Positions 11,875 through 64,000 of a stretch of 64,000 nt of DNA are shown one piece after another (the stretch's first letter is position 1; each line of letters begins with the position of its first letter). The position numbers and the translations under genes are program-made. Origin of the DNA: Aurantiochytrium sp. KH105 (lineage: Eukaryota; Sar; Bigyra; Thraustochytrida; Thraustochytriidae); NCBI GenBank assembly GCA_003116975.1, contig BGKB01000106.1, positions 164,920-228,919 of the forward strand, in the 5' to 3' direction. Under the pieces are notes generated by a model. That model worked only from the letters and a program-made list of their open reading frames with translations. It ran no database searches and had not been told where the DNA came from.

Positions 11875-14800
11875 ATGGGCACAGGCGCGAGCTCGCAGCG
11901 CAAGGCGCTTGCAAAGGGAGCGTTGCCCGCCGAGCAAGAACGCAAGGTCCAAGACCTACTGGTCGCGCGGCGCGAGCGCGACACCGATGTTCTCTTCTTG
12001 GCCGTGGGCTACGCCAGCACCTCGAGCGAGCAGACCAAGCTGAACAAGGGCAAGAGCCTCGTGGTCGTGAACTGCTACCGCGTCTATCTGTTCAGAGGGT
12101 CCTGGACGACAAAGTTTAAAGTCACATGGAGCGTCCCCGTGGTCCATATTGCGAAAATTGCCATCCTTGGCGATAGTGATGGCGATGGTGCAAAGGGATC
12201 CAAAAAGGTAGACGCCTTTCGCGTACGCCTCACACTCATCAATGGCAGCTCGCAAGACCTCCTTGTGAGCGACCCAGAAGGCTTTGCTCGATCCGTGCAA
12301 ACGGCGCACGCCATGGCTTCGTATGGCGTGCCTTGGGCCTTTGTCATGCCCCCTCAGCTGGAATCGCCCAGACCCATCATTCCTGGGGCCATCCCCGTAA
12401 TTGATGTTCCTCCTTTCCTCGCGCTCTTTCGCATTTACGCCAATATAATTTCTGGAAGCGGCGTCTTGGCGCAACAAGTCCTCGATGCTGGCGCCACCCC
12501 AATTACCACTCCCGACGACGGCCTCGGGCCGATTTCGATGCGCCTGTCTCCCACCGAGCGTCTGGGCGGCGACACAGCATGGCAGCCCGCTACCGCCGTG
12601 GTGATTCAGGCGCTCACCGCTCTATCCCTGGCGGCCACCTATGACGCATCTGTGAAGAAGGTGAGCCTGAACGGTCTTGACGATGCGCTGCTGAAGCAGA
12701 ACCCAGACTTTAGACTTGCCATTTGGGAGCTCCTGCGCTGGAATGTTGGTATCGAAGCGCTCGAGCTTTGCCAAATAGAATGCGAACCCGCATTCTGGTC
12801 AGTTCTCTCGCAGGCTCTCCTCGCAAACCCACGGCCGAGCATGGGTGTGCATTTCATGCTCGATCGCTGCAACGTCGACTCGAGCTCCGGCCTTGCACTT
12901 GCCATGCAACGCGCATATTACTTTGCCTCCCCGCTTTCGCTGCGTGTGCACCAGTTTCTAAAGGCAGGCCAGGAGAATGTGGACCCAAATGGCGAGGGAG
13001 CAAGCTGGATCTTTGAGATTTTCAACGGTGACTATCTTCCCTCACTCGACGCCACGCGTCCGCTACCGCTTCCATATCTGGGCATGTTGCAAGAATTGGA
13101 TCTTACGGGGACTCTCATTCCCGTCGCTAGCTTCGAAGCCGCCAACGCCTCCCTCTCGGGCTGTGCGTCGCTGCGCAAGCTCGTCCTTGCTGGATCCCTT
13201 CAGGAACTCGCCTCGCAGGGCCTCGTGGAAGACCTTCTCAAGGCGCTCCCCGCCAGTCCTCTTGCAACCCTTGACCTGAGCGACAACAGCAATCTTTTTG
13301 CGGTCCCCGGCTCTCGTTTTGTTGATGCTCTTGCCGACTTTGTCTACAACCGCCTCGGCTCGCTGGTCAGTATCGTGTTGACGTCAACCAACATTAGCGG
13401 CAATGAGCTCCTCGCCCTCTGCAAGGTGCTCTGCGACGACGACCAAGATGCGCTTGCTCTGCGCCGCAAAAAATTCGCAGCCACGCGCCGTCTGGTTCCT
13501 GCCGTGCAGTGGACGCGCGAGCTCATTGCGCAAGCAGCCATCACGCTTTGCGTCGGCTCCAACGAGTCATTGACCAATATTCTTGAAGCAGAATCAATGC
13601 CAAAGCTTCCCATTGGATTTTCGCTCGTTGCGAACAACCTGACCTGGAGTCGACTCGCGCAAAAGTCCATCCTCCAGTCGTTGCACACTACCGAGAGCGC
13701 GACTTTGGACTTCTCCCTCGATGAGGCCAATGCGCAATTCGACCTTCACGTCGTTGCAACGGACTATTCGCATTTGCAGGCATTTCCGCACATGGACCCA
13801 CTTCTCTACCGGGGCGGCGTTTACGCTGCTCAGGCCACTGGCCAACCCTCTGCTGCCCTCCCAGGGGGAATGAGCATCTTTGCGCTCGCCAGCAACATTG
13901 TCGACAGAATTCCGTACTCTATTATCCAGCAAATTGACGTTTGGTCCAGGACTGACATCGAGACGCAAGTCTTGGACAGCGAGCCAGAGCGTGAGCTCTG
14001 CCAACTCGTTGGAGATACGGCTCTATCCTGCGAACACCTATGGAAATTGAGTTTGCGTAACTGGCGTCTAGGACCCATGGCCTCTGCATTCTTTGAGGAG
14101 GGTATCGCACTTAACAAGACACTTCTCTCCCTCGACATTACAGGCAACTACATTGGAGACCGGGGCGCCGAGGCCCTCGGCCGAGCGCTACGCACCAATC
14201 GCACGCTCGTGTCGCTGCACATGGATGACAACCACGTCGGCCTCGATGGCTGGAAGGCCATCCGAGGGGCGCTCTATGGCAATCGTAAGATCGCGGAGTT
14301 CACGTATCCAGCAAAGGACGTAGCCCGGCGCAACGAACGGCTCAATCAGCAAATTGCTCTTGGCGACGAGATTTACAAGGTCGGCAAGCTCGATATCAAG
14401 AGAACCTATAATTCCTATTCCTTGAAACCGCGAAGCGTCGAGGTCATCAAGTATGGCAAGAAGCTCCGCCGCCATGCTATTGCGCACGCCCAAAAGATTC
14501 AAGATACTCTGGCCCAAATTCTTGCCGCTGTGGCCGACAACGCCAATGGGTGGGGTGACAAATTCGCTCCAAAGCAAGACAAGCAGCGTGCCAAGGCCCA
14601 GGACCGCATCGTCTCCAAGGTCGCACGAAAGCAAGCCAAGCTTCTTGCCAAGATGACCCGCCTTCTGAGCAAGTCCGCCGTAAAGGGTCGACGCAATAAG
14701 CGAAGCAATCCGTACGTACCCTCGGCGATTGATCCTCTGCGCCGCGGCCCCATCCTCTCCACTGATCCCGTCTACGACTACGATGACTACCTGGGTGAGA

Positions 14801-32700: not shown

Positions 32701-32751
32701 CGGACCTGCGCTGTAGGCTGCGTCCGAGCCCGCGCGCGTCCGTCGCAGCAT
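26704..32751 (-). CDS. Giant EF-hand protein with C-terminal RanBP2-type zinc finger
   Basis: An approximately 2015-aa protein starting at the ATG at 32751 (MLRRTRAG); the frame reaches a GTG at 32826 but no better start exists. An acidic disordered N-terminus is followed by about 20 EF-hand-like units in pairs. Near-canonical loops include DADHNGQVSYDE, DINRDGRIDREE, DQDGDGAVDLEE, DHDQSGRIDVSE, DANGDGQLSRRE and DTNGSGAVDYFE; others, such as LDHHGKGFID, have lost ligands and are probably structural. The pattern recalls EFCAB6-type multi-EF proteins. At residues about 1880-1903, WDCPVC...CEMC fits the RanBP2 zinc finger (W-x-C-x2-C-x10-N-x5-C-x2-C), which binds RNA or ubiquitin in other proteins. 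The tail is Ser/Pro/Arg-rich. Its role is unknown; a large Ca2+-buffering or cytoskeletal scaffold is plausible. Confidence 0.82.
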   Translation of the reverse strand: MLRRTRAGSDAAYSAGPLSLTSEDDDGEEEEDEEDEQVSASPSPSTEDDGSSSDDEASTPLSSPNSEASSQSDASHAVQQHQTPSEALATEVCKTLREQAHTGDDVMRLIKVRFESLDKARKGFINAEEFRQLLVAVLGGRDVASEDAATLLKRMHADADHNGQVSYDEFVSFVSLDRATIAATARKLRTALLKRLRDDCDGSSVNLFARYCNAKHNAIYPQDFKALVQQVKVGAEVMTDGERQGLMGFLDHHGKGFIDISDFQLFLEPPANRNTQRSQTRKAKITTKNKSNVSDGSADDEDDAQETSDEDDGNDDNNMHGQGEEESKADDGQVDNEKNDAVVVDLRLAILGSSKKRKDQEEALFSQGFTRLVSSLNGGGRGHRLHLFVRRANTSAFADEEAFMRARVTDITLSRSNKDATLLALGYQCVEPYSTSQGAWFARRQYLWVRRNAKDTNPILDLAVTAGRKRDLSSQLWTPPCRGFKRVDGDLNAGNRGAQVFLWYLKDHFQQDEGPYAQLARIVRSKLRRLAADNAIDVEALWDRYDRRDRGWLPRKHFYRLIARDLKLGLEARDMEQVVDLLDINRDGRIDREEFVDFIAFNPAQVQRILRTVATAQRKHDIDSRTALRRWLATSTAKNVAAPQRNIRRRSATSSASASVMSSISPKDLARALKRVGVRLSAEDFKALMGRFDKHGVGLVDAKDLTDALWRTIRTLRAANNASDDEGLASPSDPAAKTFVNVEVAARKLRAFARSLAGPDLDMGKACDALLGGRDKDRLSRDRVRQVLSKEFKLSLSDKEIAMLLLRTGTSRTKLIDFCTSSTYLDAVLNRIVDAALKVETRRFFRQLDAEGNGRLSRANFAAGLKALEVDGQRIQLSAKEVNQIVQRFDQDGDGAVDLEEFLHFIESADRARRAARDALLDEEERKLDDARVLYVFSALRKLHLVNHHSVDQLFAKFCTDHEQEESHTRGSASPLARGFALDGLETGLRRLGLVPQEVQLSAAQFQQVFRRMDIANAGLVRKRHFARFLARGVPGAARTALVSPQLRVPHRLRATLVAQGRALQQAMHELDARGTGLVIESAFVQAVRRLGVSSREARGLARAFVAETTRDAIDYEALLAWVDHARRQGVRRGGSGDDSDGRFGDFSPSQSPQSDRRRGRQSRRRRRRMQSDDGDDIEDGAGSFFGSDSDGLDDQDLPAAVPVIRREYRAPARLMRALHEYCNPDGRLSRADVNEMLQDAGLPALSRRDWNDMAVRTSKELCNLVFAAGHGASPRGRHRPTDETDENDFDDPETAAEADLARDYVARCVKEAVLRGKFAWETAARRYDQDGSGCIRLRDLGRVLRACDCSLPPAKLRAVAHVMAALRDGGQRVNYEHFFAHLLQPRDAQHGGAMTASEFEVGVDGHDGTRMPTYEEVETKIRNAVRAEGFADGHDLDDELARLDHDGDGKVSATVLARALPRLLGGLELTPGELQTVIEHFDHDQSGRIDVSELAALVELRDVDVDELVVRVKEELREQARMGTRLEENFAQADANGDGQLSRREFRKCLDQLLPPGRRLSNREVRRLMDRFDPARNGRVDYQAFCELCAPSEIEMLALEAKVRDKVRGVASRSRGGPVDLKKAFALFDAGGHGKVSRRDFQQACDRLGLALSENELELLLQRFDTNGSGAVDYFEFSRFIEYDGTEIEDLEVRAGRHLDALQRDQVDPVAAFEVLEGRRRPVGALPRHAFYRGCRDLEMPFGDAEISALADLFADGSSVRYRDFCLSTLARAGARYQGRLAAIAGGAHGGAPAKRLDRDEVWNPQNVEAWLSTQATVQQQRKFKHLQRAMAQACGGGVIAPICDNLENEETAANVRLRSVLKPGSSFDPAPAAPKDRWDCPVCFYKQSRANRLTCEMCDSPCPTQEATAGGQWPYVKPIFDQAYRHVGATPAGVIMADPLPALELVPQNKQPRREPKWHIVSEVDSPGLASSPRSASRASSPRSRVSSTSPTPSGRPSPRTPGSVSPRSSRYY

Positions 32752-35545
32752 GGCTGCTTGCTTTCGTTTGTGCTCGCAAGCTGGGCTCGAGCCTCGCTCG
32801 CCATGACGTGACAGGGTGCTTGTCACTCACCTTTATATTTTTTCGGCATCGTAACGGTCATCTCCCCGTGTTCCCTCCGTTGCTTGGACTTGAAAGAAAA
32901 AAGTTTTTATCCTAAAAAAAAAAAAGGGGGGGGGGAGCCCGGTGCGGCGCTACGGCTTCGAGTTCTTGTTTCTTGTTCCAAGCAATGATCACAAGCCATG
33001 AAAAGTTGTGAGGATACTAGCCTCGTTGTAACTTTTGTGCAAGAAGATGAATGACAAGGCAGAGAGAGGGCGACAGATAAGAACGAACAGGGGCTTTTAC
33101 CATGGCAAGCAAGCAAGGATGGCAAGCCTACAAACTTGCCGCCGCTGCCGCGATCGTCTCCTCTGCTTCCCTTCTCCCGCTCCCGTTGGGGAAGCTAACT
33201 AACTACCTTCTGGTTCGCGTCGCGCTTGCAAGGCTGACTCTCGATTTGGCCATGAGGGGGCAGAAGAAGGTATTCGTTCCAGCACGCGCAGAGTGAAGAA
33301 AGTATCCTCCTGAATTGTCCAGTCGTCCCGCTCTGGCTGCACGAGCGCCATGCTGCAACGACAATGGCCCAAGCCGGGCGCGCAGAAGAGGGGCGCCCGG
33401 CTGCGCAGCTCCGAGCACCCCGCCCCTTCCTGGTCTTGGCGAACGCAAGCTTTCACGCTGCTGCTCTACCCCGCACGAGAGCTCTTGACGGGCAAGGCAA
33501 GGCATGGGACGGGAGGCATTGTTCGGGATCATGACGGATAGCATGCTCGCATCGCTTGCTCGGTCCAGGCACGAAGAGGAGGAATCATGAATGCGCGGCG
33601 CGTGATCCTTTTCGGATTCAGGGTCCCGAACAACTCGGGCCACGCCGCCAGAGACTGACAGTGAATAACTCTTGACAAGATGCACTCGCTGCGCGGCGCG
33701 CGTACGACAGTCGTGCGTGCGGCGCGGGCAGCGTGTCTGGGCGCGGTCGTGATCGCCCTTCGCTGATCCCTGCCTCGGCTGACCGCGAGCGGAGCAGAGC
33801 AGAGCAGCAGCAGCTGCAGCTACAGCCCCCGGCATCATGCGCGCACGGTGAGAACGCACGGTCCCAGTCTCGCCATGATGAAAAGCAGCATAAAGCAAGC
33901 TGTATCGAAGGCGACGCGACCAGATGCCAGATGCGAACGCGCAACTGTGCAGGAGGGGCCTGAGTGGGGCCTGAGCAGGGTCGCGGCGGGGGGCAGCGCG
34001 GGCGGAGTGGCGGCACCGGGGAAAAGCGAGCGGGCGGAGGGCGGACGGGATCTCGACCGGCTGCGGGCCAGATGGTAGCTGGGCGCTGTGGCGGACGTGC
34101 GGGTAGGGGGACAGACTACGGGAGTCCACGCAGAGAGGTGCAGCGTGCTCCTCGCGTGGCCTCCCGCAATTGCGACACCTGACTGCGTTTGATTGTTCAT
34201 TCATTCGTTCAATCATTCTCTGTCGCAATCAGTCGTACATTCATTCATTCATTCACCATTCAATCGTTCAATCGTTCATTCATTCGTTCACTGTGGCCTG
34301 AACACTGATCAGGAAAGCAAGCAAGGAAAGTATGCATGCGTCAGCGATGATTGCATGCGGCTATCTATACGCATACCGCCAAAATCCATTCGAGGCGCCA
34401 ATCCAAAATCCACTCCAGACGCCATTTGAAGCCGTTGCCGATTGTTTGTGCACTGCTGTTGTTCGCGGGGGCAACGACTCATGATTCACCATGGCAGGCC
34501 AGCACCGCAACGGTTTCTTTCCTTTCCAATTCTGCCAAGAAGGCCCTCAAGAAGGCTTTCCTACTCGAGTTGTGGATCTTGATCATCGAGGTACATACCT
34601 GCTTGAGGCGCTCATTTGTAATGTCCTGCGTCTTCTTTGGCTTAGAATGCACCTCTTCTTTGGCCTTTCCGAAAAAAATAAGCTCAAGCTCGAGTTCACC
34701 TCTTTTTTGGTGGCCGCCTTGAGCAGACTCGTCCTTTCCAGCTTCTTAATCTCTCTTGCGCTTGAAGGATGGTGCAATCGGTAGTTGCTGTTGATCGAAT
34801 AAGACTGCTCTTGCTCTTTGCTTCTCAAACACCACTTGCCTCGATCGATCAGCCTCGCTCTCGTCGTCCACAAGAGACAATCGGCAAGCGAGTTCGGAGG
34901 AGACGTCGGTCTCATCATCATCTTCTGCTCTTCTGCCTGCAGCTGGCTGCTGCTGCATGCTGCTGCTGCTCCTGCTTCTCGCCATGCCCTGCGACCTGAT
35001 GTGAATCGAATCTCAACGTCCTCCAGGCCGTCCTGCCGGAGAATCTTGTGCTGCGGCAGGCCTGAGGGGCCGAAAGAACTCGGCGCAGAGGCGGCTCGAC
35101 CTCTCCTCTACTCGTCTCCTCTTTTCTCCTCTCGGCTGCGGCGGAGCCTTGCTCGGCCGATCGACAGGCCGGGCGGGATGCACGACAGAGGCCGAGGGCG
35201 CGGAACTGCGAAGGCACTGATGGTGCGAGGCGCAGGCGGCAGCCAGGCCGCGGAGGCGGGCGGCGGGAGAGTCAGGCTGGAGAAAAGCGAGAGGAAGATG
35301 CGCGGCGGCGGGAAGGAAGCTAGCGCGGCGCGCGGGAAGGCGTGCACGGAAGAAGGATCAGTAGCCACGAACGGAGCGGACGGAGCGGGACAGGGAGAAT
35401 TTTGAGCTAACCGACGAACTGCGATTTGGTTGGACGGTCTGTGGAAAGGTATTCATTCGTTCATGCATGCTAAAGGATACATCCATTCGGGTTGTTGGTT
35501 GCCTGCACATGCCGTTCGTTTGTTGGTTCATTCGCTGTGTCGTGT

Positions 35546-49420: not shown

Positions 49421-49723
49421 CGGCAGCTGCGGCAGGAGACACAATTTCAAGTACGTATAGCAAAGTGTGCAGTGAGTAAAACTTCCGACTTGCCTTTATG
49501 GCGGCAAGTGCTGCTTGACTGGTAGTGGCCGGCTGTCTGTCTGGCTGGCCATGGCTGGCCGGCATCAGAGGCTGCGTCCAGCGATAGCCAGATCACAGCG
49601 GCCAAGCAGCCAGGCGCAGGGATCGCTCGCTCGCCATCGGTGGTGGGCGGCGGCGGCAAATCCGATTCATGCCCGCGAGCGCTAGAGGGAGAGAGCGCTA
49701 GAGGGAGAGAACAAGCTCAGCTC
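47914..49723. other. Divergent intergenic region
   Basis: About 1.8 kb with GCGTG and GGCGG runs near 48000-48040, CTCTG pentamers at about 48117-48160 and an AGC run at 49377-49419. Large overlapping frames on both strands lack domain content. Confidence 0.6.
49377..49419. repeat. AGC trinucleotide repeat, 14 units
   Basis: Uninterrupted AGC triplets are read directly, about 300 bp upstream of the protease start codon. Confidence 0.93.
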
Positions 49724-51037
49724 ATGGTGGTGAAGGCCGCACAGTGGACAGCCATCGCGGCTGTCGCAGTGCTGTGCGCCACCCAGACGACGGAGGTTTG
49801 CTGCGCAACAGATGATGATGCCGTACAAAGCGTGACATCACCACTTTGGGGCAATATCGTCAATGGCGAGGCTGCTAGCGAGGCGCCCTCGTGGATGGTG
49901 TCTCTGCAGGGCGCAAAGTCCGGCCACTTTTGCGGCGGGTCTCTTATTGATCCCAGCTGGGTCCTCACAGCCGCCCACTGCTTGCCTGGTGGCGCGGTAC
50001 CAGGGCGCATGGTGCTCGGTGCGAGAGATCTCAATGACGAGAGCGCCCCAGCTCAAGTCCGAGACGTGGGCAGCGAAAGTGATCGAAAATTCACCACCTA
50101 TGTGCACCCCGACTTTGCAGGAACTGCAGGCAAGAACGACATCGCCCTTGTACACGTAACACCGCCGTTCCAAGTCACATCGGACGACATCATGATTCTA
50201 AATGCTGACGCCGCCGCTGAAGATGCAGAGTCTAATCTTTGGCCGACGGTGACGGGCTGGGGCACCATCAAATTTGGATCCAGCGAAATGGAAACGGAGC
50301 TACGCGCCGCAGACATACCCCTCGTGCCCATTCAAGACTGTCGTAGCCTCTATGGAAGTACGCTTGTCCTCGACTCTAACCTGTGCGCTGCAGGGGGCGA
50401 CACGAGCGCCTGTCAAGGCGATAGTGGCAGTCCCCTTTTTCGTACGCGAGACGATGATCGCGCTGTGCAGCTTGGCATTGTTGCCTGGGGTCACGGGTGC
50501 GGCTGGGTGGGTTACTACGGCGTCTATGTCAAGGTGCGCTCGTTTCGGTCGTTTATATTGGAACACGTACCCAATGCGATCTTTTCTGACGATGTTGATG
50601 ACGATGACGATGACGACGATGATGGAACTGATACGGCGCTGAAACTATACCAAAACCAGGATGATGCTTGCCGAAAGCTCTCGCGTCGCCGCTGTAAAAA
50701 CCGAGTCAATCGCGCGACCTGCCACTATGCGGGCAAGCGCTGCCGGGCGCACCCAATCGAGGGCATGCCGGTCTCCACATTCTGCGCAGTGATGAGCATA
50801 AGTCGCAGCTGGTGCTCTCTCGATCGCTTCGCGCAAAACTGCTACTGGGACAGCGGAATTTGCTCTGCGATTCAAACGCCAAGCCCAACACCAATGCCAA
50901 CCATGAGTCCAACAATTGGGAGTTGCAAAAAATACAAGTCAGACCGTCAAGCTTGCGAGGCGGATTGGTCGTGTCAGTGGAATGGAAACAGCTTCCGACC
51001 CATTCGACGACGCTGCTCGCGCCGAGCAGGACTTTGA
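49724..51037 (+). CDS. Secreted chymotrypsin-fold (S1) serine protease with Cys-rich tail
   Basis: A 437-aa secreted protease. The start at 49724 gives a signal peptide (MVVKAAQWTAIAAVAVLCAT); the mature domain begins near IVNGEAAS, the usual activation site. The catalytic triad is His85 in LTAAHC, Asp139 in NDIALVHV and Ser234 in GDSGSP. The residue at the trypsin-189 position appears to be Ser, six before the nucleophile, which argues against strict trypsin specificity. After the protease domain comes an Asp-only run, then a Cys-rich stretch with two similar segments (ACRKLSRRRCKN..., SCKKYKSDRQACEAD...) separated by a Pro/Thr/Ser linker. Such tails often bind polysaccharide or other proteins. 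The C-terminus is slightly uncertain: another frame remains open to 51128 with plausible protein text. Confidence 0.88.
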   Translation: MVVKAAQWTAIAAVAVLCATQTTEVCCATDDDAVQSVTSPLWGNIVNGEAASEAPSWMVSLQGAKSGHFCGGSLIDPSWVLTAAHCLPGGAVPGRMVLGARDLNDESAPAQVRDVGSESDRKFTTYVHPDFAGTAGKNDIALVHVTPPFQVTSDDIMILNADAAAEDAESNLWPTVTGWGTIKFGSSEMETELRAADIPLVPIQDCRSLYGSTLVLDSNLCAAGGDTSACQGDSGSPLFRTRDDDRAVQLGIVAWGHGCGWVGYYGVYVKVRSFRSFILEHVPNAIFSDDVDDDDDDDDDGTDTALKLYQNQDDACRKLSRRRCKNRVNRATCHYAGKRCRAHPIEGMPVSTFCAVMSISRSWCSLDRFAQNCYWDSGICSAIQTPSPTPMPTMSPTIGSCKKYKSDRQACEADWSCQWNGNSFRPIRRRCSRRAGL

Positions 51038-51598: not shown

Positions 51599-54500
51599 CT
51601 ACAGGTGAAAATTCTCGCCGACGATATCCGGAGTGAGCAGCGGCTGCAGCAGATTACGCACTTTGCTGCGTGTCTCTTGATCTTCGATTTTGCCCGACAT
51701 GTACTGACGCAGACGCTGCGCGCGGATGCGGGCCCATGCTTGGCGCACAATGGCAATGTCGCTAAAGTATGGATCCGCATCCTCGTCGTCGGGCTTTTCC
51801 GGGCAGTTGGCCACGTGAAAATGACAAACGTCTGCATTGTCGCCCGCGTCATGCAAACACCATGCGCAGAAGCGGCACGGACACTTGCTGCACTTGAGCG
51901 CACAGCAGCCCTCAAAGTCATCAAACGTCGTGAAGCAGCGGGGGCATGCCAGGTTTAAAACCTCATTTTCGATGGCGCGAAGGTGCCCCTGTGTCGTGGT
52001 GTCCAGGCCATGCTCGCGGAGCAGCGAGTCGACGCGAAGCTGCACCTGTCGATCCTGCTCGGCCGCCGCATCTCGCTCAAAGTGCTCGCGCACAATGACG
52101 AGCAAGGCCGCAAAGTCCTCATCCGGTACGGCAGTTGCAAGGGTTCGTCCTGGGATCAAGAGCTCGCAGTCCAGGGAGACACAGCACATACTTCCGTCGC
52201 GCAGCACCTTGACGTGGGCGTCGGGCTTGGTCGCGGCGCGCACCGACTGACTCAGGCAATCTCTGCAGGTAAAATGGCCATCGGCGCAAGACACTCCCTT
52301 TGTCAGGGGAAAGATGTCGAGACAAATTGTGCACGAGTCCACGGGGACGGGCTGGACCTGAAAGGCCTCGTGATGCATGGATTGCAGCGCAGAGGGGCGT
52401 TGATCTGGATTTGCTGAGCACAGCGCGGTAATGAGCGCTTGAAGAGGCCCGTTTGGGGCCGCAAGTCCATCAAAGAGCTCCGCGAGTACAACTCCTACAG
52501 AGAACATGTCCACTGCAGACCCGACCTTGCTGATGTTGCCCTGGCGTAGCTCAGGTGCAAGGTACTTGATGGTGGTTTGCAAAGGCTGCGTCATGGTCAC
52601 GTCGAGGGCTTGCACGCCATCAAAGTCCCCGAGCACGGGCGAGAGACCGGGCGCGAGAAAGACGTTCTCGGGCTTGACGTCGCAGTGGATTAGGTCTCGA
52701 GAATGCAAATCATGAAGACCCGAAAGAAGGCCAATGGCAATATGTCTGCGCGTCGCCACGTCTGCATGCGGGTTGTCGCGGATCCAGGCGGCAAGGTCGC
52801 CGCCTGGATAGTACGGCATAAGGATGCACCCGTGCCGGCCGTCCTCCCAAAAGGCTCCCTGGATGCGAACAATGTAGGCCGAATGAATCTTGACGAGCGC
52901 AGCGACTTGGCGATAAAAGCGGCCATTCCATTCGTCGTTGCCCACATGAAAGGATTTAAGAACCAAGTCCCGACCATCGGGGGCCCGCACACGAAGCACG
53001 GTCTTGCCAGGCTTGAAGGCCAGCTCGGCGAGAACCTTGAAGTCCTTGCGCTTGGCGTTGGTCAGCCAGAGCCCCATCTTGGATAACTCCTGCGGGACTT
53101 GATCTGCCATGCCGACGCTCTTGAGCCACTTTTGGTCCTGAAGCAGCTCCGGATAGTGTGCCTCTGCGTGTTGCAACACTCGCGCGCGCTCCTTGCGGAG
53201 CTCGCTGTCGAGCTTGTAGATGCTTTCGACCTGCGCGAGCTCTTTCTCAAGAGCAGGAACCGCGATTTGAGCCTGCGCATCGCCGTCATTTGCATCCTCG
53301 CGGGCAAACTTGAGATCCTGCTCCAGACGCTCCCGCTTGCGCGAGATTTTGCGGATCTCAGCGACAATCTTTGTGACACGCGCCGTGTTCAACTTGTGAC
53401 GTCCACGCGCAAGATGCGCGAGAAACGATCTGAGACGGTTGTCCTGGGTTTCCAAACGCGAGACCTCATTTGCGATGGTGCGCGTGTAAAAGGAGACGGC
53501 AAAGCCGAATGCGCGCTGTATCTCCTTGAAGGGAGCGTCGTCCAATCGATCGGCTTTGAGCAGAGTGTCGAATTCTGCTTTGAAAGCTTGTCGCACGATT
53601 TCGAATTCCCTCGTGAGCTCCTGAATCTTTTCGGGATGCCGCAACGACAAGAAGACGGACGGCTGGACGCCAAAGCGCCGCGTGCTCTCCTCGAGCGCAT
53701 CAAGGGCTGCAGTCGTGCGCTCATGCGCAGCGCTCGCGTCGTGTCGAGCCTCCCACGCCTCGAGGGCTTTGCGTGCAGCTTGTGCTGCCTGCTGCACCTC
53801 TGCAAAGGGGACTTGGGATGTTGCGACCATTTCAAGAGTGGTCTGCCCAAGGGAGTCGCTCGCTTCGGAGGATTCGCGTAAGATGTCCTGCCACAGCTTG
53901 AGACAGGTGTCCACCACTTTTTCGGGCTCATGGCGCTCGCGTAGCAACTTGAGCTGGTCTTGCACGTTACCGGAGAGCGTCTTTCGAAGATATGCCACCA
54001 GGTTGCGTCGAGCTGTGTCACGCTCTGAGGCTATGGCTGCGTCGGATACAACAGCCTTTTGCAGCTCCGTAAAGTTTTGGACAAACTTGCAGGCCTGAGC
54101 CTGCTTGTGGGCAAAGTCCTCAAGCACCGCGAGCGGATTCTTGCGGGAAAGCTGCTCGGCCAAAACCTTGTGCAGCATCGGGTGAAGCACGGGCTTGTCT
54201 TTGCCGCGCAACGTGCGTGCAAAAGATACCTTGGCAGCAAGCGCCTCGACCTTGGTCGTCTGATCGGGGTATGCAAACGTTTGCAAGAGCACCTGACACT
54301 CCTTGACAGAGACGAGGCCCATCTCTCGAAGAAGAGCGGGCGTGAGAGCTCGGGCGTCTTTGGCGGTTCGCACGCCTTTGTCAAAGAGCGTGACGATGAC
54401 CGCTCTCGAGTCGGTCGTCTTGAGCTGCACGAGAGGCAGTGGCTGTACGAACGAAAGAAAGGCCGCAAGATCTGGGCACTCCCGCGAGATGGCGTGGGCG

Positions 54501-56069
54501 CGCGCCTGATCAATGCCAAGTCTCTCGCTGGACAGACCTGTGCCATGCTCGAAGAGAAGCTTGGCCAAGACTAGGCTTTTGGTATCATCATTGGCCTCGC
54601 AAGCGTGAAAGAGAGCTGTTTTGCCCATGCTGTCGCGGGCATCGGCCCGCACGCCGCCAGAGAGGAGTCTTTTTGCAGCAGGAATGTCGAAGCTTCTGCA
54701 CGCCTTCATGAGCGGAGTAAGGCGCTTTGCGTACAGCTTTTGATTGCGCTGGAGCGCGGCTTTCAGCTGAGGGGTATTGATGTCCAGACTGTGCGGTTGA
54801 CGCGAGAGTAAGTGAGTCGTGTGCTGGCGCCATCGCCCTTTAGTTGACAGTAACTTACACCAGAGTCTGCAGCGTGCTGTTCTTTGCAAGTACGTCTGTC
54901 AGCGCCACGGTTCCGTCCTGGCTGATCTTGTTACTCTGGAGACTGCGTGCACGATTAGGTGAGTTGCTTGTTGCCTGTGGGGTTATGCATGCTTGGTGTA
55001 ACCTACTTGAGCGTATGCAGCGTGACGTTTCGCGAGAGCGCGGTTGCTAAAGGCGTGGCGCCTTCGTCAGCAATGGCGTTCTCAGAAAGGCTATGTTATT
55101 GAATTTTAATTGGCATGTCAGTCGATCTCTTGCTCGGGCACAGGGTAAAAAATGAATCGGCGATCACTTACTCGAGCGTCTGCACAGACTTGTTCCTTGC
55201 GAGGCCGATTGCCAGCCCCGCGGCACCCTCGTCGCCAATTCTGTTGCGTGCGAGGCTGTATTTGGAAGTATATGCAACGTCATTTTGGAACGGTTCGTAT
55301 TTCTTGTGAGTTGCGTGGTTTTTGTTGCAAGGAGAAGGGCCCTTTGGGAACTTACGAAAGCGTCGATAGCGACTTGTTGCTCATGAGAGCGTTTGCCAGC
55401 GCCTTGGCGCCCACGTCCCCGATATCGTTGCAGGACAGACTACGCAAGCTCTTGTCAGTTTTCCGTGCGCGCCCGGTGCAGGTAGACCTTGCGGCTTTAT
55501 TATTAGTATGGAAGTAGCTTCCAAGAACGGACGAATCGAGACCAGTCTCGATCCTTCAGCCCTTGATGTCTTGTCCAAACTGATTAACCAGCAGGCTCGA
55601 GGCTCAATCTCTACCCCGTTTCTGTACTGTAAACTTACGAAAGCGACTCTAGGGTCTTGTGACCCGCAAGGACTTTGGCCAAGGCAGAGACGCCCACAGG
55701 GCCGATCTCTGTGCATGACAGACTATGTGTGTGCGAATGATTAACATTACGCGTTGATTGTCAGTGAGCGATTGCGGTGGGGTCGCTTTTCTCTTGATGT
55801 TACGTACTCGAGCGTCTTTAGCGACTCGTTTGCGGCGAGCGCGCCCGCGAGTGTCGTGGCACCCTTGTCGCCAATCTTGTTGCTCCCAAGACTGTGTGTT
55901 CATTGGTTTTTGATGTCAGCGTGGAAAGCATGATGGCAAGCGCATCGGTTAGTGACAAGTGCATATCTGGCACGGCTCGAGTTCGCTCGTTCACCTACTT
56001 GATTTCCGTCTCGCCCCGGGTCAGGGCTTTAGTGGCCCTTGCGACAGGGTCCTCACCTGAAGGCTCCAT
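51599..56069 (-). CDS. LRR-ankyrin-coiled coil-kinase-RING/RING2 protein (copy A), eight exons, complete
   Basis: The exons, in gene order, are 55999-56069, 55808-55891, 55639-55722, 55356-55439, 55172-55255, 55007-55090, 54859-54942 and 51599-54788, encoding 1254 aa. Exon 1 gives MEPSGEDPVARATKALTRGE. The next six exons are each 84 nt in phase 2 and each encode one ribonuclease-inhibitor-type LRR (for example LARNRIGDEGAAGLA). The last exon holds two ankyrin repeats (about 213-275), a long helical region with coiled coils, and a kinase-like domain (about 780-1000) with K803, HCDVKPEN (D895), DFD at 913-915 in place of DFG, and YLAPE. It ends with a RING from C1011 (CTICLD, CADGHFTCRDC) and a RING2-like module CPRC...FEGCCALKC with candidate catalytic C1153. 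No Gly-rich loop is obvious. It may be a receptor-like ubiquitin ligase. Confidence 0.85.
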
Positions 56070-57030
56070 CCGTTTTGAATCGAGGTTTTCGAAAAAAAGC
56101 TCTTGTTGGTTTGAATTTTCCAGCCGTCAAGTCTTGAGCTTGAGCTAAGAGCCGAGAAGCAAGACGAGCCGAGCGCGTCAGAGTTCGTTCACCTCTTCTT
56201 CCTTCGCGAGCTGCAGCGAAGCAGCTTGCTCTTGATGAGCGCGCGCGAGAGGAGACCTAGCTCAGGCCTTGTTCGAGAAAACGACCAAGTCGGCACGGAA
56301 CCCAAGGCAGACGAAAGGGCACGAAGGCAACCACCCCGCCCGTTTTCGTTGCAGCAGTTGCGAGACGCAGCGAGGTCGAACAAGACGCAGCGGAGTCGAG
56401 CGAGGTGCAGCGAGACGCAGCGAAGTCGAACGAGACGCGAGACAGCGTTGCGCGTTTGCGGAGCGTTGCTGGCAACGTCGCGTCTTGGCCCACCTTTTCA
56501 GAACTTTTCAACGCTTGACTGTTTCCGCCAGTGACTCCAGTACATTTGGTGGGCCAGAAAGTGAAAGAGACGTCAGTGCCGAGTAGAAGGTTGTCTGGCG
56601 ACGGTTGCCGACGTGAAGGCTGGACGTTATCGGCCAAGTCCCCAGCGCTAACTCCCGGTGGCCCAACGCACGTACGTTTGCGGCTGGGGCAGTCGTAACA
56701 ACGTCCGAGTATCTTCTTTCTTGGGTCATCTTAGCAAGCTCGTCGGTTGGAGGCGGATGGCTGGATACGTTCGGCCCAGTCACTCCGGGACAATTTCATG
56801 AAGGCCGATCGTGCGTTGCAAGCTGGCGCAGAACTTTCCTCGTCTTTTGAGGTTCGCGCGTCCACCTCATCATCGACCTTATGCCTTTGCGTTTGCGCTT
56901 GATGCGCTGGCAGCGCGGCCTCTTTGCCGTTTTCAATTTTGGCGCATGGAAGCAGAGAGCAGTCTAAGCGAAGAATGAATGAATGGCTGATAAACAGTGA
57001 GTCATCCGATGGCTGCAAGGTCAGGCATGC

Positions 57031-57284
57031 ACTTTTATCGAGATGAGCAAAGGATGATTCGACCCCCCCTTTGTGGCTCGTTGATTGCTGCCAAGATCAA
57101 GGTTGCTCTCCCCCTTGAGAAGAGACCCGGGGATGCGAAACAACCAGCACACCAAGAACTTTTATCGAGATGAGCATAGGATCATTCGACCCCCCTTTGT
57201 GGCTCGTTGATTGCTGCCAAGATCAAGGTGGCTCTCCCCCTTGAGAAGAGACCCGGGGATGCGAAACAACCAGCACCCCAAGCG
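57031..57284. repeat. Tandem duplication, two 127-bp units
   Basis: Units 57031-57157 and 57158-57284 each begin ACTTTTATCGAGATGAGCA and differ at only a few positions, including a C-run length. It looks recent. No function is evident. Confidence 0.9.
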
Positions 57285-57596
57285 TTGAAGAGGCCTCGTT
57301 TGCGTTGCAGCGGCGGTTTTACCTCTGGGTCTCTCGGCAATGCAATCGAAACGTAACGTTCAGAAAGACGCTTGACCAAGAACAAGGCGTCCTTGTCTGC
57401 TTTGGGGCGCTGAAACCAGGTTCACATTTATCCGAATCGCCAAGTGTAGGTTTGGATAGATTGATGGCATCGGAATGTATTTGCTCAAGCTTAAGCATCA
57501 CTCGCGCTGATCATGACTTTTAGTGTCTTTGCTTCCCTCGACAACCTGTGTTGCGTGCAGGACCACGCAAGGCCGTGTATTCTGATTTTCCGCAGG

Positions 57597-57637
57597 GCGA
57601 ATGAGACGAGGAGTTGCCCACGTGGTCTAATCAAATG
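57597..57637. repeat. Dispersed repeat, first copy
   Basis: GCGAATGAGACGAGGAGTTG is followed by 21 further matching bases; the 41-bp segment recurs at 59614-59654 with four mismatches, in the same orientation. Confidence 0.85.
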
Positions 57638-59613
57638 CATGATGACTTCGGAGGCTGGTCATCACCTTGCAGACGGTGACTTTCGTCGCGATCTTGGCAA
57701 TGCTACAAGGGTGGCGCACGACACATGGGTGAACGACGCTGCCATTGCGTAGACTGAGGCCAACGCAAGGTGGTCGTAAATTTTGATCTGCACTAAAACG
57801 CCGCTCTATCAACGCGAGAAAAGAGATACACATACTCATTCACTCGCTTGACGATTAATTGGCAACGTGTCAGTGCAAAACATGTAGCTTGGTTCGGCAG
57901 AAAGGAAAGTCTGCTCTTTTAGCGCTCAAGAGGCTTGGGACCATGTGTACACGCCATTGGTTTGGCTTGGGCCTCCGCTCGTTTCGACTCAACTCCTTTA
58001 GCCGGCCCGAAAAGGAGCATATTCAAAGCGTGCTCAAGTTGCGTGCTCAAGTTCGATCAAAACCCGAATACCGAAACCATGGGCGTCAATTTCACCAACG
58101 ATTTCCCAGCGATCATGGAGAGTTCTTACAAGGTTGTACTGGGTGTACATTGAACGCAAGGATAGCTGGGATCAAGCAGCGAGGTGACTGCGTAAGAACA
58201 CCGTTCGGCACGGGTCGGCTCAGGGCCCTTTGCCGGTCGCCGACCCGGGACAGGTTTTATATTAAGATATGGCGCGCGCAAGCGGCGCGCGCAAGAGTCG
58301 ACGCAACCGTGCAGCAAATCTTGTTCTCAGAATCAAGGGCGCGCTTTCGGCAAAAAGATTGTGCAAAAAAACGCACTTTAGACAGTGGCAAGTCTGCCGC
58401 AGTCGAAGGTGAAGGAACTTTCGTCTTTTTTTCGTCGCTCATCACAATGACTTTGAGTTGTGGAGATGAGACACTATCTGAAGAGACGGTGCCGCCCTTG
58501 CTCGCTTGCTCTCCGCGGCGGCGACTCGGAAGAAGCTTACTCAAGCGCCGTCACGTTCACTTGCTGATAAAAGTTCACGCAATGTGGCGCCGCGCGCAGT
58601 CGCGTTCTTGCTGCTCGTGGAGCGCGCGTCCGCGACTACAGGCGACAGTTGGACGGGCGGCTTCGGGTTCTACTCTGCTGCGCAAGACACCGCCCGGCCG
58701 GATCGACGCGCGTTTGCAGCTGCACCTGCCAGACGACGAGATGGGTTCCCACTTACTGCCTGATGCCCTGCTGCGTTCGACTTGCGAAGTAGCTCATAAT
58801 TTGCGTTGCGCAGAATGCGTTGCGCGGACAAAGCACCTGACAGTGAGCGCAAGAAGTTCGTTTTGCAGCCTGACTGACAGTGGGGGAAAGTAAATAAGCG
58901 CGACTGAGAGCACGTGCGCTTTCAGTTGTCCGCGTGCGGCGTGCGGCGTGCGGCGCATTTGAAAAAGGTGAATCGTTGGCGTGTGTCCCGAGAATGTGCG
59001 CGCGCGCAGCACGTCACCTACAGTAGATGGACATTCTCTTTTTCACGTCACTTCCAACGTGTTCAACGTCGTGTGAAGAGGGAAGCCCGAGCAAGCATGC
59101 GCGCACGAGAGCAGCTAGACAACCGTGGCCATGGCCTCAAGCAAAAACTGCCCAAATCTGTCAGCAGCAGGCCCGAGCTTTAAGCAGAAACGCAAATTCT
59201 ATTCAACGAAAATATTCGACCTTTGCCGTAACCACGATCATTCTCAGCAAAAGGGCTGTCCAGTCTTACGTTTGAATGATATCTCAATACTGCCGCACCA
59301 ACTTTGGCCATCCCAACTTCCTCTCAGCTCTAGCTTCCATGCCTTTGCACGTATCGCAAGTCCTCAACGTCGTCAGGAAACTCGCAGAGGTCATTGAAAA
59401 ATGCCGAGGCACTCGGTCTCTACGCCAAAAAGTCTTGTCAAAGTTTTACAGCCCAAGCTCGGCGGGACGAACACCTCCATCCAAAAGATACTCGTGTTTT
59501 TTTTATTTATAAAAGATAAAAATGGAAGAAAAAAAGAACATTCAACACCGGGACTTCGCGTGCAGTCCCCTATCACACTACTAACCCGGCCCTACGTGAC
59601 TTTTCTGCTCAGT

Positions 59614-59654
59614 GCGAATGAGATGAGGAGTTGCCCACGTGGTATGATCGAATG
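59614..59654. repeat. Dispersed repeat, second copy
   Basis: Partner of the 57597-57637 copy, about 200 bp beyond the 3' end of the copy B receptor-like gene. The repeat may be part of a larger decayed element. Confidence 0.85.
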
Positions 59655-59857
59655 TGAAAGAATTGAGAGTTTTGGTCTTATATATTACTAGTTCAAAGTT
59701 GGCCACTTTCCATAAAAGTATGATCGTTGCGAAGCCGTGCGGCGGCGGCGCCGGGCAATCGCATGAATCCTTATGTAATAGTTGTCAGAAAACGTCTGGC
59801 CCCTCGAGAAGACGTAAGTCGAACATGAGAAGCAAAGCGAAAACTGGTAACTATGTT

Positions 59858-62800
59858 TTAGGAAAAAGTAAAATTGTCGCCGACAATGTCCGGCGTGAGG
59901 AGAGAACGCAACTTGTTCTCAACGCTGGCACGAACACCTGGGTCGTCGATTTTCTCTGCCATGTAGCGACGAAGACGCTGCACTCGAAGCCGAGCCCAAG
60001 CTTGTTTTACAACAGCAAAATCGCTAAAGAATGGGTCTTTTTCGCCAGCAGGCTTTGACGCGCATCTTGCCACGTGCTGATGGCAAGCGTCTGCGTCATT
60101 GCCTGCATCTTGCAAGCACCACGCGCAAAAGTAGCATGAGCAAGCGCCACATTTGAGAGCACAGCAGCCATCAAAGTCAGCAAAGACTGTCGAGCAACGC
60201 GGGCACGACATGGCGAGGACCTCATCTTGAATGTCGCGAATGTGATTCTGCGTCGTCTGGTCCAACTCATGTTCGCGAAGTGCTGCGTCGACGCGATCAC
60301 GGAACTGACGCTCTTGTTCGGCTGCGGCGTCTCGCTCAAATTGCGCGCGCACAATGGCGAGTAGAGCTGAAAGATTTCCGTCTGGAACCGCGGATGCAAT
60401 GGCTCGTCCAGAAACAAGGAGTTCACAGTCGGGCGCGACACAGCATACGCTTCCATCTCGTAGTACCTTGACGTGCGAGTGAGCCTCAATGGCAGCGCGC
60501 ACCGACCTGCTCAGGCACTCTATACACGCAAAGTGGCCATCAGCGCAAGAAACGCCTCCACTGACTGGATACACGTCGAGACAAATAACACATGAGGCCT
60601 TCTTCATAGGCTCGGCCTGAAAGGCTTCGTGATGCAAGGCCTCAAGCGCAGTGGGTCGCTGTGTTGGATCAGCAGATTGGAGAGACGAAAGGAGGGCTTG
60701 AATTGCGTCAGACACCTCTGAGCCGTCAAAGAGTTCCGCGAGCACCACACCCACAGAAAACATGTCCACGGCAGGCTCGACCTTGTCGACATTTCCGTTG
60801 CGGAGTTCTGGCGCCATGTACTTGATGATGGTGGCCTGCATCGGCTGCGTCATGGTCACATTGTGCGTCTGCACGCCGTCAAAGTCGCCCAGCACCGGTG
60901 ACAGACCCTTTGCGAGAAAGACGTTTTCTGGCTTGACATTGCAGTGCACGAAGCCTCGCGAATGCAGATCGTGGAGGCCAGAAAGGAGGCCAATGGCAAT
61001 GCGCAGACGAATTGCCATGTCTGCGTGCGAATGATCGCGAATCCACGTGGCGAGGTCGCCACCCGGATAAAACGGCATCAGAATGCAGCCCTCACGTGCA
61101 TCCTGCATAAAGGCGCCCTGAATCTGGACAATGTAGGCCGATTGAATCTGGGCAAGTGCCGCAACTTGATGGTAAAAGCGACTGCTCCACGCCTCGCTGG
61201 CGAGATGAAAGGCCTTGAGCACGAGATCGCGGCCATCGGGGCCACGTACTTTTTGCACAGACTTGCCAGGCTTGGACGCAAGCTCCTTGAGAGTGACAAA
61301 GTGCTCGCGACGTGCCGTCGTCCGCCATAAGGTCAGCTTGGACAGCTCCAACGGTGCTCCGCCGTTGCCCAAACCCAGCCGCTTCAGCCACTCTTGATCC
61401 CGGAGCAGCTCAGGGTAGTGCTCTTCTGCATGACGCAACAAGCGAGCTCGCTTCTTGCGCAGCTCGCTGTCGAGTTTGTCAACACTTCCGGTTTGAGCGA
61501 GCTCTTGCTCCAGGTCAGCGATTCTCGCTTGAGCTTCCTCGTCACCTCCTCTGGCATCCTCGCGGGCGTCGTCGAGTTCGAAAGCAAGACGCTTAAGCTT
61601 TCTCGTCTTGTTTCTGAGACTCTTGAGAAGAATCTCTGCATCTTCGGTGTTTGGCTCAGTGAGTCCAGACGTGAGGCGCGAGAGCAAATGCCCAAGGACC
61701 TCAACGCGCGAGACCACGCTCGAAATCGTACGAGTGTAAAACGAGAACATGCAGGCCAACGCACGTCGCACTTCGTCGAGCGGGGCATCTGCCATGGGAT
61801 CGCCTTTCTTCAAGACGTTGAGCTCCGCAATAAAAGCTTGGTGCACATCCTGAAGTTCCAAAACCAACTCCTGTGATCTCTCGGGATAAGTCAGCGTCTC
61901 GAAGAATGTAGACTGAATGCCAAGGCGCTTCGTGCTCTCTTCTAGTGCGTTGAGAGCTGCAGTGGTGCGTTCGCGTGCAGCAATCGCATCATGGCGAGCC
62001 TCCCACGCCTTGATGGCCTCCATCATGGTTCGAGTTGCCTCCTGTACTTGTCCAAAGGTCACTAGCTCCGCTGCATCGTCGATATTTTCTGCTTCGCCCA
62101 GGATATCTCGCCAGAGCTTGCGACAAGTGTTGGCCACGTCGTTTGCATCATCTTCCAGCTCCTGAAGCTTGGTTTCTGAAAATATTGCGAGAGTCTCTCG
62201 AATACACGTGAAAAGGTTGCGCCGCACCTGGTTCCGTTCAAGGATCTTTTCTGGGTCTGCCTTGACGGCTTCCTGCAGTGTGGTGAGCGCTTGCTCTTTC
62301 TCAGGTACAGCTACTTGCTGCGAGTCAAAGTCTGCCACAATGGCACTCGGATTTTCGCGTGAGAGCTGCTCGGCAAAGAAATCGCGCAGCATTGGATGGA
62401 GTTCAGCCTTTTCCTCGCTACGCTTTGCCCGGGCATTGGAAAGCTCCGCGGCAATAATCTTGAGCTTGCTCGTTTGCCCAGGACCTACAAACACTTGCAG
62501 CAACGCACGGCGGTCTTGCAAGTTTGCTATCCCCAGTTTCTCAAGCTGAGCGGAAGTGAGACTGCGAATCTTCTTCAATGTCCGCACGCCCTGCTCGTAA
62601 AGCTTGACAACCATCTCTCGCAGTGCGTTGGTTTGCAGCTGCGCTAACGGTAACGAGTGTATGAAGGAGAGAAAGGGGGACAGCTTCGTGCGGTGACGGC
62701 GGTAAAAGCCCGGATTGACCTTCATTATTCCAAGGGACTCGCTCGAGAGACCTGCGCTGTGCTTGAAAAGAAGCTTGGCTACAATAAGAGCATTGTTCTC

Positions 62801-64000
62801 ATCCCTGGCTTTGCAGGCGTAGAACAGCGCTGTTTGGCCAAAAATGTCCCGCGCGTCGATTTGAGTCCCGCCAATGATCAGCTTTTCTGCCTCCAAGATG
62901 TCCTCGTTCTTGCACGCCTGCATAAGAGGCGTCTGACTCTGTTCGTACAGAGCTCGATTGCGGTCGAGAACGGCTTTGAGAGCAGGATTGTTGAGGGCGA
63001 TGCTGTAATTTCAAAATGTCAGAAGGAATATTATGCGGTCTGTGGGTCCTCTTTGGGACTTACCCGAGCTTTTGCAATGTTTTGTTTTCTGCGAGTGCGT
63101 TCGCCAGCGCCGTGGTGTCCTCGTCGTCGATATGGCCCCCCTGAAGACTGCGCTCGCCATAAGATGAGGCGCCAAGATGAACGAAATCACGCCAAGGATT
63201 GCATTTCGTCGCATCCCATGTGAGCAGGCGTGTGCGAGATCTGGTCAGCTCTTGTTGCTTGCTTCTTGGGCTTCTGGCCCCACTTTCACTTTGTCGCAAT
63301 GACTTACAGTAGCGTCTGTAGCGACTCATTGTTCGCAAGTGCGTTCGCCAGCGCTGTGGCGCCCTCGTCGCCGATATTGTTCCACCCAAGACTGCGCTTG
63401 TCATGACATGAGACGCCAAGATGAACGAAATCGCACCAGGGGTTACAAGCCGTCGCATCCCGTGCGTGCGTGCGTGCGTGCGTACGTGAGTTGTGGTCAG
63501 CTGTTGTTGCTTCTTGGGCTTCTGGTCTCACTTTCACTCTGTCGCAATGACTTACCCGAGCGTATGCAGCGACACGTTCTTTACGAGTGCGTTTGCTAGC
63601 GCCGTCACGCCCTCGTCGCCGATCTCGTTGTGCGAAAGACTGCGCTGGTCATAACATGAGACACCAACATGAACGAAATCGCGCCAAGGGTTGCGTTCCG
63701 TCGCATCCCATGCGTGCGTGCGTACGTGAGTCGTGGTCAGCTCTTGTTGCTTCTTGGGCTTCTGGCCCACTTTCACTTTGTTGCAATGACTTACTCTAGC
63801 GTCTGCAGCGACTCGTTGTTCGCGAGTGCGTTCGCCAGCACCGTAGCGCCCTCATCGCCGATCTTGTTGCCGTCAAGACTGCGCTCATCATAACATGGGA
63901 CGCCAAGATGAACGAAATCGCGCCAAGAGTTGCATTCCGTCGCATCCCATGCGTGCGTGTGCGTATGTGAGTTGTGGTCAGCTCTTGTTGCTTCTTGGGC
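59858..64000 (-). CDS. LRR-ankyrin-coiled coil-kinase-RING/RING2 protein (copy B), 5' end outside window
   Basis: Paralogue of copy A in the same orientation. Visible exons are 63795-63878, 63556-63639, 63308-63391, 63064-63147 and 59858-63002; more LRR exons must lie beyond 64000. Each LRR exon is 84 nt, phase 2 (for example LQGGHIDDEDTTALANALA). The last exon encodes 1047 aa with two ankyrin repeats, a helical region, a kinase-like domain, a RING (CVICLD, CADGHFACIEC) and the RING2-like CPRC...DGCCALKC. The catalytic-loop Asp is replaced by Asn (HCNVKPEN, codon 60938-60940) and DFG is again DFD, so this copy is probably a pseudokinase. The αC Glu position looks like Gln in both copies. The introns between LRR exons are nearly identical. 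Confidence 0.83.
63064..63878 (-). repeat. Tandem array of 84-nt LRR exons with near-identical introns
   Basis: Four exons (63064-63147, 63308-63391, 63556-63639, 63795-63878) are separated by introns of 155-164 bp that share long identical blocks, such as GTCAGCTCTTGTTGCTTCTT. The period is about 240-248 bp. The copying unit is exon plus intron, which keeps the frame and adds exactly one 28-residue LRR. The array continues past the window end. Confidence 0.92.

Follow-up and report, generated by a model that had tools for sequence, protein, structure and literature searches.

What kind of protein is encoded by two neighbouring genes in a 64,000-nucleotide stretch of Aurantiochytrium sp. KH105 DNA (contig BGKB01000106.1, positions 164,920 to 228,919; the whole stretch is called the window below), which appear to join receptor-type repeats, a kinase-like domain and zinc-binding modules in one chain? 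An earlier note, made from the letters alone, took each gene to combine leucine-rich repeats (LRRs) with a pair of ankyrin repeats, a helical linker, a kinase-like domain and two zinc-binding modules of the RING and RING2 type, and our analysis supports this composition for a single protein, with the two modules being RING1-like and Rcat-like. The genes belong to a large family in which the repeats are highly diverse, the core is constrained and the cysteines of the zinc-binding modules are conserved. On balance, we favour the view that the family represents lineage-expanded intracellular receptors, with repeats as sensors, a kinase-like domain as a switch and a RING1-linker-Rcat module as a ubiquitin output. 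In other words, this is most likely an NLR-like (nucleotide-binding, leucine-rich repeat receptor-like) class of intracellular receptors that would be wired straight to an E3 ligase.

For each gene, the long core exon and the LRR exons were confirmed, all of them on the minus strand. Their features in the window are as follows.

55999..56069, minus strand: gene 1 exon 1, 71 nt, ATG at 56069, MEPSGEDPVARATKALTRGETEI, phase 2 at its end
54859..55891, minus strand: gene 1 LRR exons, six of 84 nt each, phase 2, LRR_6 E-value (E) 1.3e-35
55891-55808, 55722-55639, 55439-55356, minus strand: gene 1 LRR exons 1-3
55255-55172, 55090-55007, 54942-54859, minus strand: gene 1 LRR exons 4-6
51599..54788, minus strand: gene 1 core exon, stop codon at 51599-51601
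52366..53101, minus strand: gene 1 kinase-like domain (query stretch), Pkinase E 5.4e-27, PDB kinases to E 2e-15
51602..52399, minus strand: gene 1 C-terminal stretch with the RING1-like and Rcat-like modules
63064..63878, minus strand: gene 2 LRR exons, four inside the window, LRR_6 E 1.7e-19
63878-63795, 63639-63556, 63391-63308, 63147-63064, minus strand: gene 2 LRR exons, 84 nt each
59858..63002, minus strand: gene 2 core exon, stop codon at 59858-59860
59861..60637, minus strand: gene 2 C-terminal stretch with the RING1-like and Rcat-like modules

The joined frame of gene 1 has 1254 amino acids and 0 internal stops. Its core consists of an ankyrin pair, a helical region, the kinase-like domain (HCDVKPEN, GDFDGV), the RING1-like module, a helical linker and the Rcat-like module; the core of gene 2 follows the same order, with HCN in place of HRD. 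A relative on contig C87 (L017), which has ten LRR cassettes in all (4 + 6 in two readings), carries a candidate first exon, MSDEDELNRAIETIENGATEIEY, 5' of its cassettes, and this is similar by eye to exon 1 of gene 1. A hydrophobic stretch is not evident at the N-terminus of gene 1, as judged by eye only and without topology prediction. The 5' end of gene 2 lies beyond the window, where a run of N about 6.15 kb long begins in the assembly directly at the window's end. Past this run (L009 on C106, at about 235.0 kb) there is a fragment whose translation resembles by eye the helical linker of the family, which suggests a third copy in the cluster.

The domain searches suggested in the earlier note were borne out for the LRRs, the ankyrin repeats and the kinase, whereas the zinc-binding modules stayed under every Pfam cut-off. 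In addition to the LRR_6 matches listed above, Pkinase was matched in gene 2 as well (E 7e-26), and Ank_2 in both genes (E 1.4e-6 in gene 1 and 9.8e-6 in gene 2, the latter with a score barely under the cut-off). Scans below the cut-off covered 22 of 31 members, nine having been dropped as near-copies, broken or truncated; in 13 of these 22 a SAM-like stretch was seen in the helical region after the ankyrin pair (best E 0.0045, under the cut-off). Neither NB-ARC/NACHT nor Roc/COR had a Pfam match in either window core, and NB-ARC/NACHT was also absent for the 22 members among 25 of the 39 families listed.

Each LRR is encoded by one exon, and its usual form is LxxNxIGDEGATALANALANNESLQTL plus one split codon, giving 28 residues, presumably of the ribonuclease-inhibitor type. 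Since the LRR exons are in phase 2 at both ends, cassettes could be gained, lost or skipped with the frame kept. Entropy and the proportions of nonsynonymous (pN) and synonymous (pS) differences were determined for 94 of 100 cassettes, the six of gene 1 being left out. Positions 2, 3 and 5 of LxxNxI are by far the most diverse (3.78, 3.36 and 2.59 bits), positions 8 and 20 are variable too (2.02 and 1.97 bits), and structural positions, among them 1, 4, 6 and 14, have an entropy of 0-0.32 bits. Going by the LRR pattern, positions 2, 3 and 5 would lie on the concave face. At these three positions pN is 0.573 compared to 0.125 elsewhere, and the mean intron distance is 0.123. The case for diversification rests first on this contrast with the framework and second on the contrast with introns. 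Two further comparisons address the latter. A downstream intron was available for 74 cassettes (2701 pairs). Here differences at the three positions amount to 64-86% of comparisons as long as the intron distance is no more than about 0.16, and to 75-78% at larger distances, while framework positions differ in 4-10% and framework third codon positions in 4-18%. Among 52 cassettes with both introns (1102 of 1326 pairs, with very unequal intron lengths and gene 1 left out), the putative concave-face residues differ in 84% of comparisons versus 21% for the other positions and 11% for the flanking introns; exon divergence as a whole is 20.6% of sites versus 11.4% for introns, or about twofold. One member (L024) has three near-identical cassettes in tandem, a fresh tandem duplication. 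The earlier idea that repeat turnover fits an immune-type locus is thus upheld by these tandem cassettes and the diversifying LRRs. One symmetric phase-2 exon per LRR and diversity of the putative concave face, the features by which exon-cassette LRR receptors are recognized, are both found in the family.

The core shows the opposite pattern. In 13 close members the ratio of nonsynonymous to synonymous rates (dN/dS) is 0.21 for the kinase, 0.27 for RING1, 0.26 for the linker, 0.20 for Rcat and 0.23 for the tail; it is 0.27-0.53 for the helical region, 0.45 for the SAM-like stretch and 0.60 for the ankyrin pair. The kinase, RING1 and Rcat are therefore under purifying selection.

Conservation of cysteines and histidines was examined in 31 aligned members, two of which have no zinc-binding modules. 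All eight RING1 ligands are retained in every one of the 29-30 members having them. In Rcat, C950, C957 and C976 are present in 29/29 members, C939 in 28/28, C936, C949, C954, C962, C965 and H979 in 28/29 each, and H977 and C983 in 27/29, the deviations coming largely from the broken member L025. A profile search against PDB sequences matched the first module to RING1 of RNF216 (E 0.001, profile positions 16-74) and the second to RNF31/HOIP (E 0.24). At E<=10, Pfam matches comprised zf-RING_2 in 19/22 members (best 0.011), IBR_1 in 14/22 (best 0.028) and zf-RING_14 in 8/22 (best 0.011). For comparison we also used RING-between-RING (RBR) ligases of the same genome, in which PF01485 identified two canonical RBR genes on each haplotype; 34 family rows were aligned by hhalign to a template of two RBR sequences. 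Rcat aligned with RING2, and not with IBR, over 38 columns without gaps (32% identity, P 3.5e-4), and RING1 aligned with the RBR RING1, with gaps (19% identity, P 1.1e-3). The Rcat spacing C-x2-C-x9-C-x4-C-x2-C-x4-C-x2-C is identical in the window genes and in both of these RBRs; in one member (L037) it is longer by two residues. The RING1-like module ends in C-x4-C.

The kinase-like domain is probably a degenerate, regulatory fold. Among solved structures it comes closest to a MAP kinase kinase-like protein, MEK1/2, StkP and IRAK4. The family members aligned and read (37 of 47 places) all retain the DFG aspartate, in a DFD motif, and the beta-3 lysine is kept in all 31 members counted. The HxD position is occupied by Asp in 29 of the 37 and by Asn in eight, gene 2 of the window included; the eight Asn members fall into one tree group of ten, together with two Asp members. 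The position of the alpha-C glutamate, located through an alignment with MEK, is Gln in all 37 members, and the glycine loop is mostly KPGKSV, with GxGxxG absent, so that the full set of active-kinase features (Lys, HRD Asp, DFG Asp, alpha-C Glu and glycine loop) is not found together. Phosphorylation, one of the outputs proposed in the earlier note, is consequently doubtful, given HxN in gene 2 and in 8/37 members overall, Gln for the alpha-C Glu throughout and the missing GxGxxG. Ubiquitination appears to be the more likely output of the two.

Based on these observations, the following mechanism may be proposed. A hypervariable N-terminal array, made of either LRR cassettes or ankyrin repeats, would use its concave face to bind diverse proteins, probably non-self ones. 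This event would be relayed through the ankyrin/helical region to the kinase-like domain, acting mainly as a regulatory switch, which in turn would expose or activate the C-terminal RING1-linker-Rcat module. If this module binds zinc and an E2, as we presume, Rcat would accept ubiquitin from the E2 on the first cysteine of its conserved CC motif and pass it to the bound ligand or to a signalling partner.

A number of observations weigh against such a receptor. The zinc-binding modules reach no Pfam cut-off, and in the same scans unrelated families score alike (CheR_N in 13/22 members, best 0.016; DEK_C in 9/22, best 0.049). The lowest E in the PDB profile search belongs to an ordinary RING, RNF4, on the Rcat stretch (0.00057, although 0.15-0.24 with single stretches), and two unrelated chains, eS27 (0.088) and ADF (0.19), outscored HOIP. 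The hhalign probabilities of the RING1 and Rcat alignments are just 21-37% (37% for Rcat). There is no IBR: in the window genes RING1 and Rcat are separated by 73 residues free of Cys, a linker that appears helical by eye. The His at +2 of the RBR catalytic Cys is replaced by Ala in the family. Since the alpha-C Glu and GxGxxG are lacking, the kinase switch, too, is a conjecture. The structure model, made from two sequences, had a mean predicted local distance difference test (pLDDT) score of 37.5 and was useless. As for the LRRs, pS at the three variable positions (0.577) is as high as pN, and their pooled dN/dS is about 1. Framework pS (0.320) exceeds the intron distance of 0.123, and introns are thus possibly a poor neutral yardstick; part of the contrast between exons and introns may stem from conversion or from constraint acting on the introns. 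Finally, the cassette pairs are not independent of one another.

Because the IBR is absent and the profile scores are weak, the C-terminal modules are best described as RBR-like rather than canonical RBR; an RBR, by the definition in the available text of PMC3305615, comprises RING1, IBR and RING2. The RING/RING2 assignment of the earlier note holds in this reduced form, backed by the Cys/His pattern and by the matches to RNF216 RING1 and to RING2 of the genome's own RBRs, but without the IBR. The same data raise the alternative that the zinc-binding modules are purely structural or protein-binding, which would make the protein a scaffold with inactive kinase and E3 folds. The missing IBR, Ala in place of the catalytic His, the degenerate kinase motifs and the weak profile scores would all be accounted for in this way. 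We nevertheless regard it as unlikely. In RBRs, the catalytic Cys is not a zinc ligand, and the catalytic-site His is H359 in HHARI and H433 in parkin (available text of PMC3305615 and PMC3772753). In the family, the presumed catalytic Cys (position of HHARI C357) is kept in 28/29 members, and Rcat has a dN/dS of only 0.20. Moreover, in the profile-search alignment a His is likewise absent at this position from RNF216, which gave the best RING1 match and is reportedly active.

If the proteins are indeed receptors with an E3 output, the next question is what they recognize, and the makeup of the family bears on it. The host assembly has 76 Mb in 367 contigs; PfaD gave four strong matches on two contig pairs and many kinase pairs had equal scores, which indicates that the assembly is diploid. 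In a eukaryote, PfaD-type PUFA synthase genes are a sign of a thraustochytrid, and the PfaD loci thus fit the stramenopile origin implied in the earlier note. With both haplotypes counted, the family occupies at least 47 places, 44 found by a search with the two cores and three more. Of the 37 members read, 25 carry one or more LRR exons 5' of the core, ten have an ankyrin array, which is one long frame replacing the LRR exons on the same core, and two could be assigned neither. Nine ankyrin-type members form one group of the core tree, while one (C15:895777) stands apart with the LRR-type members L028 and L033. Ankyrin-type members at two places of the tree imply that the same core has been combined with two sensor types. 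The LRR array, previously seen as the sensor, is therefore present in the window genes but not fixed, as related cores bear ankyrin arrays. The C15 member (C15:895777-899181; L132, L138) is 74% identical to gene 2 in its C-terminal half and 48% in its N-terminal half, which suggests that it is a recombinant; other ankyrin-type members show a similar, weaker contrast.

The relationship between the two window genes is not that of a recent tandem pair. Gene 2 shares 56% identity with gene 1 but as much as 92% with genes on other contigs, so that a recent local event can be rejected for the tandem duplication named in the earlier note. Gene 1 has an allele at C115:15471-18695, with 98% identity over residues 25-1099. 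The stretch of C115 that was read (6500-15500) tracks the window at 93-95% from window position 54797 to 59684, where synteny ends, 174 bases before the stop codon of gene 2. Core searches gave no further family match on C115, direct reading covering 6500-15500, and near the break there is an open frame resembling by eye the ankyrin-type linker. Gene 2 thus appears to be missing from the C115 haplotype, unless it is assembled elsewhere. Two ankyrin-type members, C15:342056 (L035) and C6:502332, are possibly divergent alleles of one place, their 3' flanks being 88% and their cores 83% identical. For L019 (C49), an allele on C90 was considered and rejected for want of similarity.

Such differences between haplotypes, both at the position of gene 2 (C106 versus C115) and in the C15/C6 pair, along with the high copy number and strong diversity, would also be expected if the same hypervariable LRR-E3 design served self/non-self recognition in mating or fusion, or recognition of symbionts, in place of defence. 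We see only a small chance of this: no feature seen in the sequence hints at mating or fusion, and dozens of diversified paralogues per genome suit a panel of pathogen sensors at least equally well. An immune role would remain the preferred reading.

Could the family instead be a product of repeat-driven amplification, at assembly or subtelomeric repeats, that is decaying and has little function? For 26 of 39 places on contigs of known extent, the nearest contig end is no more than 20 kb away, and in all 26 it is the 5' side that faces the end; for control kinases on contigs of known length the corresponding number is 7/27. This is only suggestive of a subtelomeric location, and assembly breaks at the family repeats could also explain it. 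The telomere patterns TTAGGG and TTTAGGG had no match, though the search method skips simple repeats. Several members are disrupted or truncated (L025 has four stops and L024 one; L027 and L029 lack the zinc-binding modules). However, 38 of 44 places have an open frame of more than 1000 amino acids with the match free of stops, and the kinase and zinc-binding modules have dN/dS of 0.2-0.3, which makes decay very improbable. As to relatives outside the host, none was confirmed among viral contigs. Prokaryotic matches numbered 199, and the best 80 of the 199, all within query residues 603-865, look like ordinary kinases by their extent and identity.

The LRR exons and the core exon are very probably joined in one transcript. 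The evidence was read in 22 of the 25 LRR-type members. The intron before the core exon, with a GTAAGT donor, is short: it measures 57-68 nt in 19 members, and in the other three the scripted acceptor is doubtful. In all 22 the unspliced frame is interrupted by stops, and in all 22 the matched core frame has no Met until residue 23-30. It is from the frame, the intron and the start codons together that the single transcript is deduced, and the idea that the LRR exons and the long exon are separate, merely adjacent genes can hardly be maintained against such evidence.

How, then, does the family compare with known systems? The nearest published parallels that we found are the LRR-ROC-COR (ROCO) proteins of brown algae for the sensor and Arabidopsis KEG for the kinase and E3 in one chain. 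As described in the available text of PMC11378527, the brown-algal proteins, also from stramenopiles, have one phase-2 exon per LRR, tandem LRR cassettes and positively selected concave sites, all of which parallel the sensor described here. According to the same text, their LRR exon is 72 bp and encodes 23 residues, compared to 84 nt and 28 residues in our family, and their output is a Roc-COR GTPase instead of the kinase-like and RING1/Rcat part. Unlike them, our family can carry an ankyrin array instead. KEG, as far as the available text of PMC11020294 goes, combines a RING E3, a kinase and ankyrin repeats that bind substrate. However, its order, RING-kinase-ankyrin-HERC2, is opposite to the one found here (PMC11020294, available text), and that part of the description mentions no LRRs, no Rcat and no hypervariable family (PMC11020294).

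With RBRs such as HHARI, parkin, HOIP and RNF216, the family shares a RING1-like module and the RING2/Rcat spacing, yet it differs in having no IBR, in having Ala for the catalytic-site His and in being fused to the kinase-like and repeat-sensor parts. Plant and animal NLRs, as generally known, are likewise expanded and diversifying, combine an LRR sensor with a signalling part and are intracellular, as we presume these proteins to be. In contrast to NLRs, there is no NB-ARC/NACHT switch, the output would be an E3 ligase, and the repeat sensor is N-terminal rather than C-terminal. LRRK2 has ankyrin, LRR and kinase parts, and LRSAM1 has LRR, SAM and RING. To our knowledge, neither combines a kinase with RING/Rcat, and neither is a multigene hypervariable family. 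The features compared thus set the layout apart from NLR, ROCO and canonical RBR proteins, in agreement with the earlier note, which could associate it with no described NLR or RBR family. Among the papers listed on RBRs (with kinase, LRR or ankyrin parts, or lacking an IBR in protists), on thraustochytrid LRRs, on repeats in Aurantiochytrium or Schizochytrium and on protist NLRs, the architecture was not found in titles or opening parts of abstracts, and none was listed for RBR/ariadne proteins with a kinase; nor does the term RING occur in the available main text of the P. infestans kinome paper (PMC3019232).

The host genome contains other receptor-like genes. NB-ARC has just 2 matches, both weak (E 8.1e-5 and 2.7e-4), and COR-A has 124, of which 116 are above the cut-off; ROCO genes thus appear greatly expanded and NB-ARC genes all but missing. 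At one locus (L143, C90:2500-9500, 2100-6073), 84-nt phase-2 LRR exons, three of them found by script, are followed by an 889-aa frame matching Roc (1.7e-16), COR-A (1.4e-10) and TIR_2 (6.4e-15), and a second TIR frame stands at the start of the locus. By these matches it is an LRR-ROCO-TIR gene with the same 84-nt cassette format.

Elsewhere in the window, 126 bases are duplicated in tandem between the two genes (57031-57282, 96% matches), and a trypsin-family protease frame (49526-51037, E 3.1e-42) adjoins gene 1 on the opposite strand. Farther away are a 2040-aa frame with many EF-hand matches (26704-32826, EF-hand_7 E 1.4e-74) and a 1658-aa frame matching Glyco_transf_49 (1.6e-37) and LRR_6 (9.8e-7) at 11833-16809.

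Little is known of immune receptors in unicellular eukaryotes, and thraustochytrids are both hosts of viruses and organisms grown for oils. It is tempting to see in the family, though we put this forward tentatively and at somewhat less than even odds, an immune-receptor class that does without a nucleotide-binding switch, with LRR or ankyrin sensors placed on a kinase-like domain and an IBR-less, RBR-derived ligase, so that recognition would lead directly to ubiquitination. The new element is the output module on a repeat-sensor receptor; the sensor design itself is already known. If this is the case, the design of repeat sensor plus signalling module would have arisen again with a different switch and a different output. 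Diversification of the LRR cassettes would outpace that of the adjoining introns, recombination or alternative splicing could reshuffle the cassettes, and the loss of IBR from an RBR-like module would make the requirement for IBR testable.

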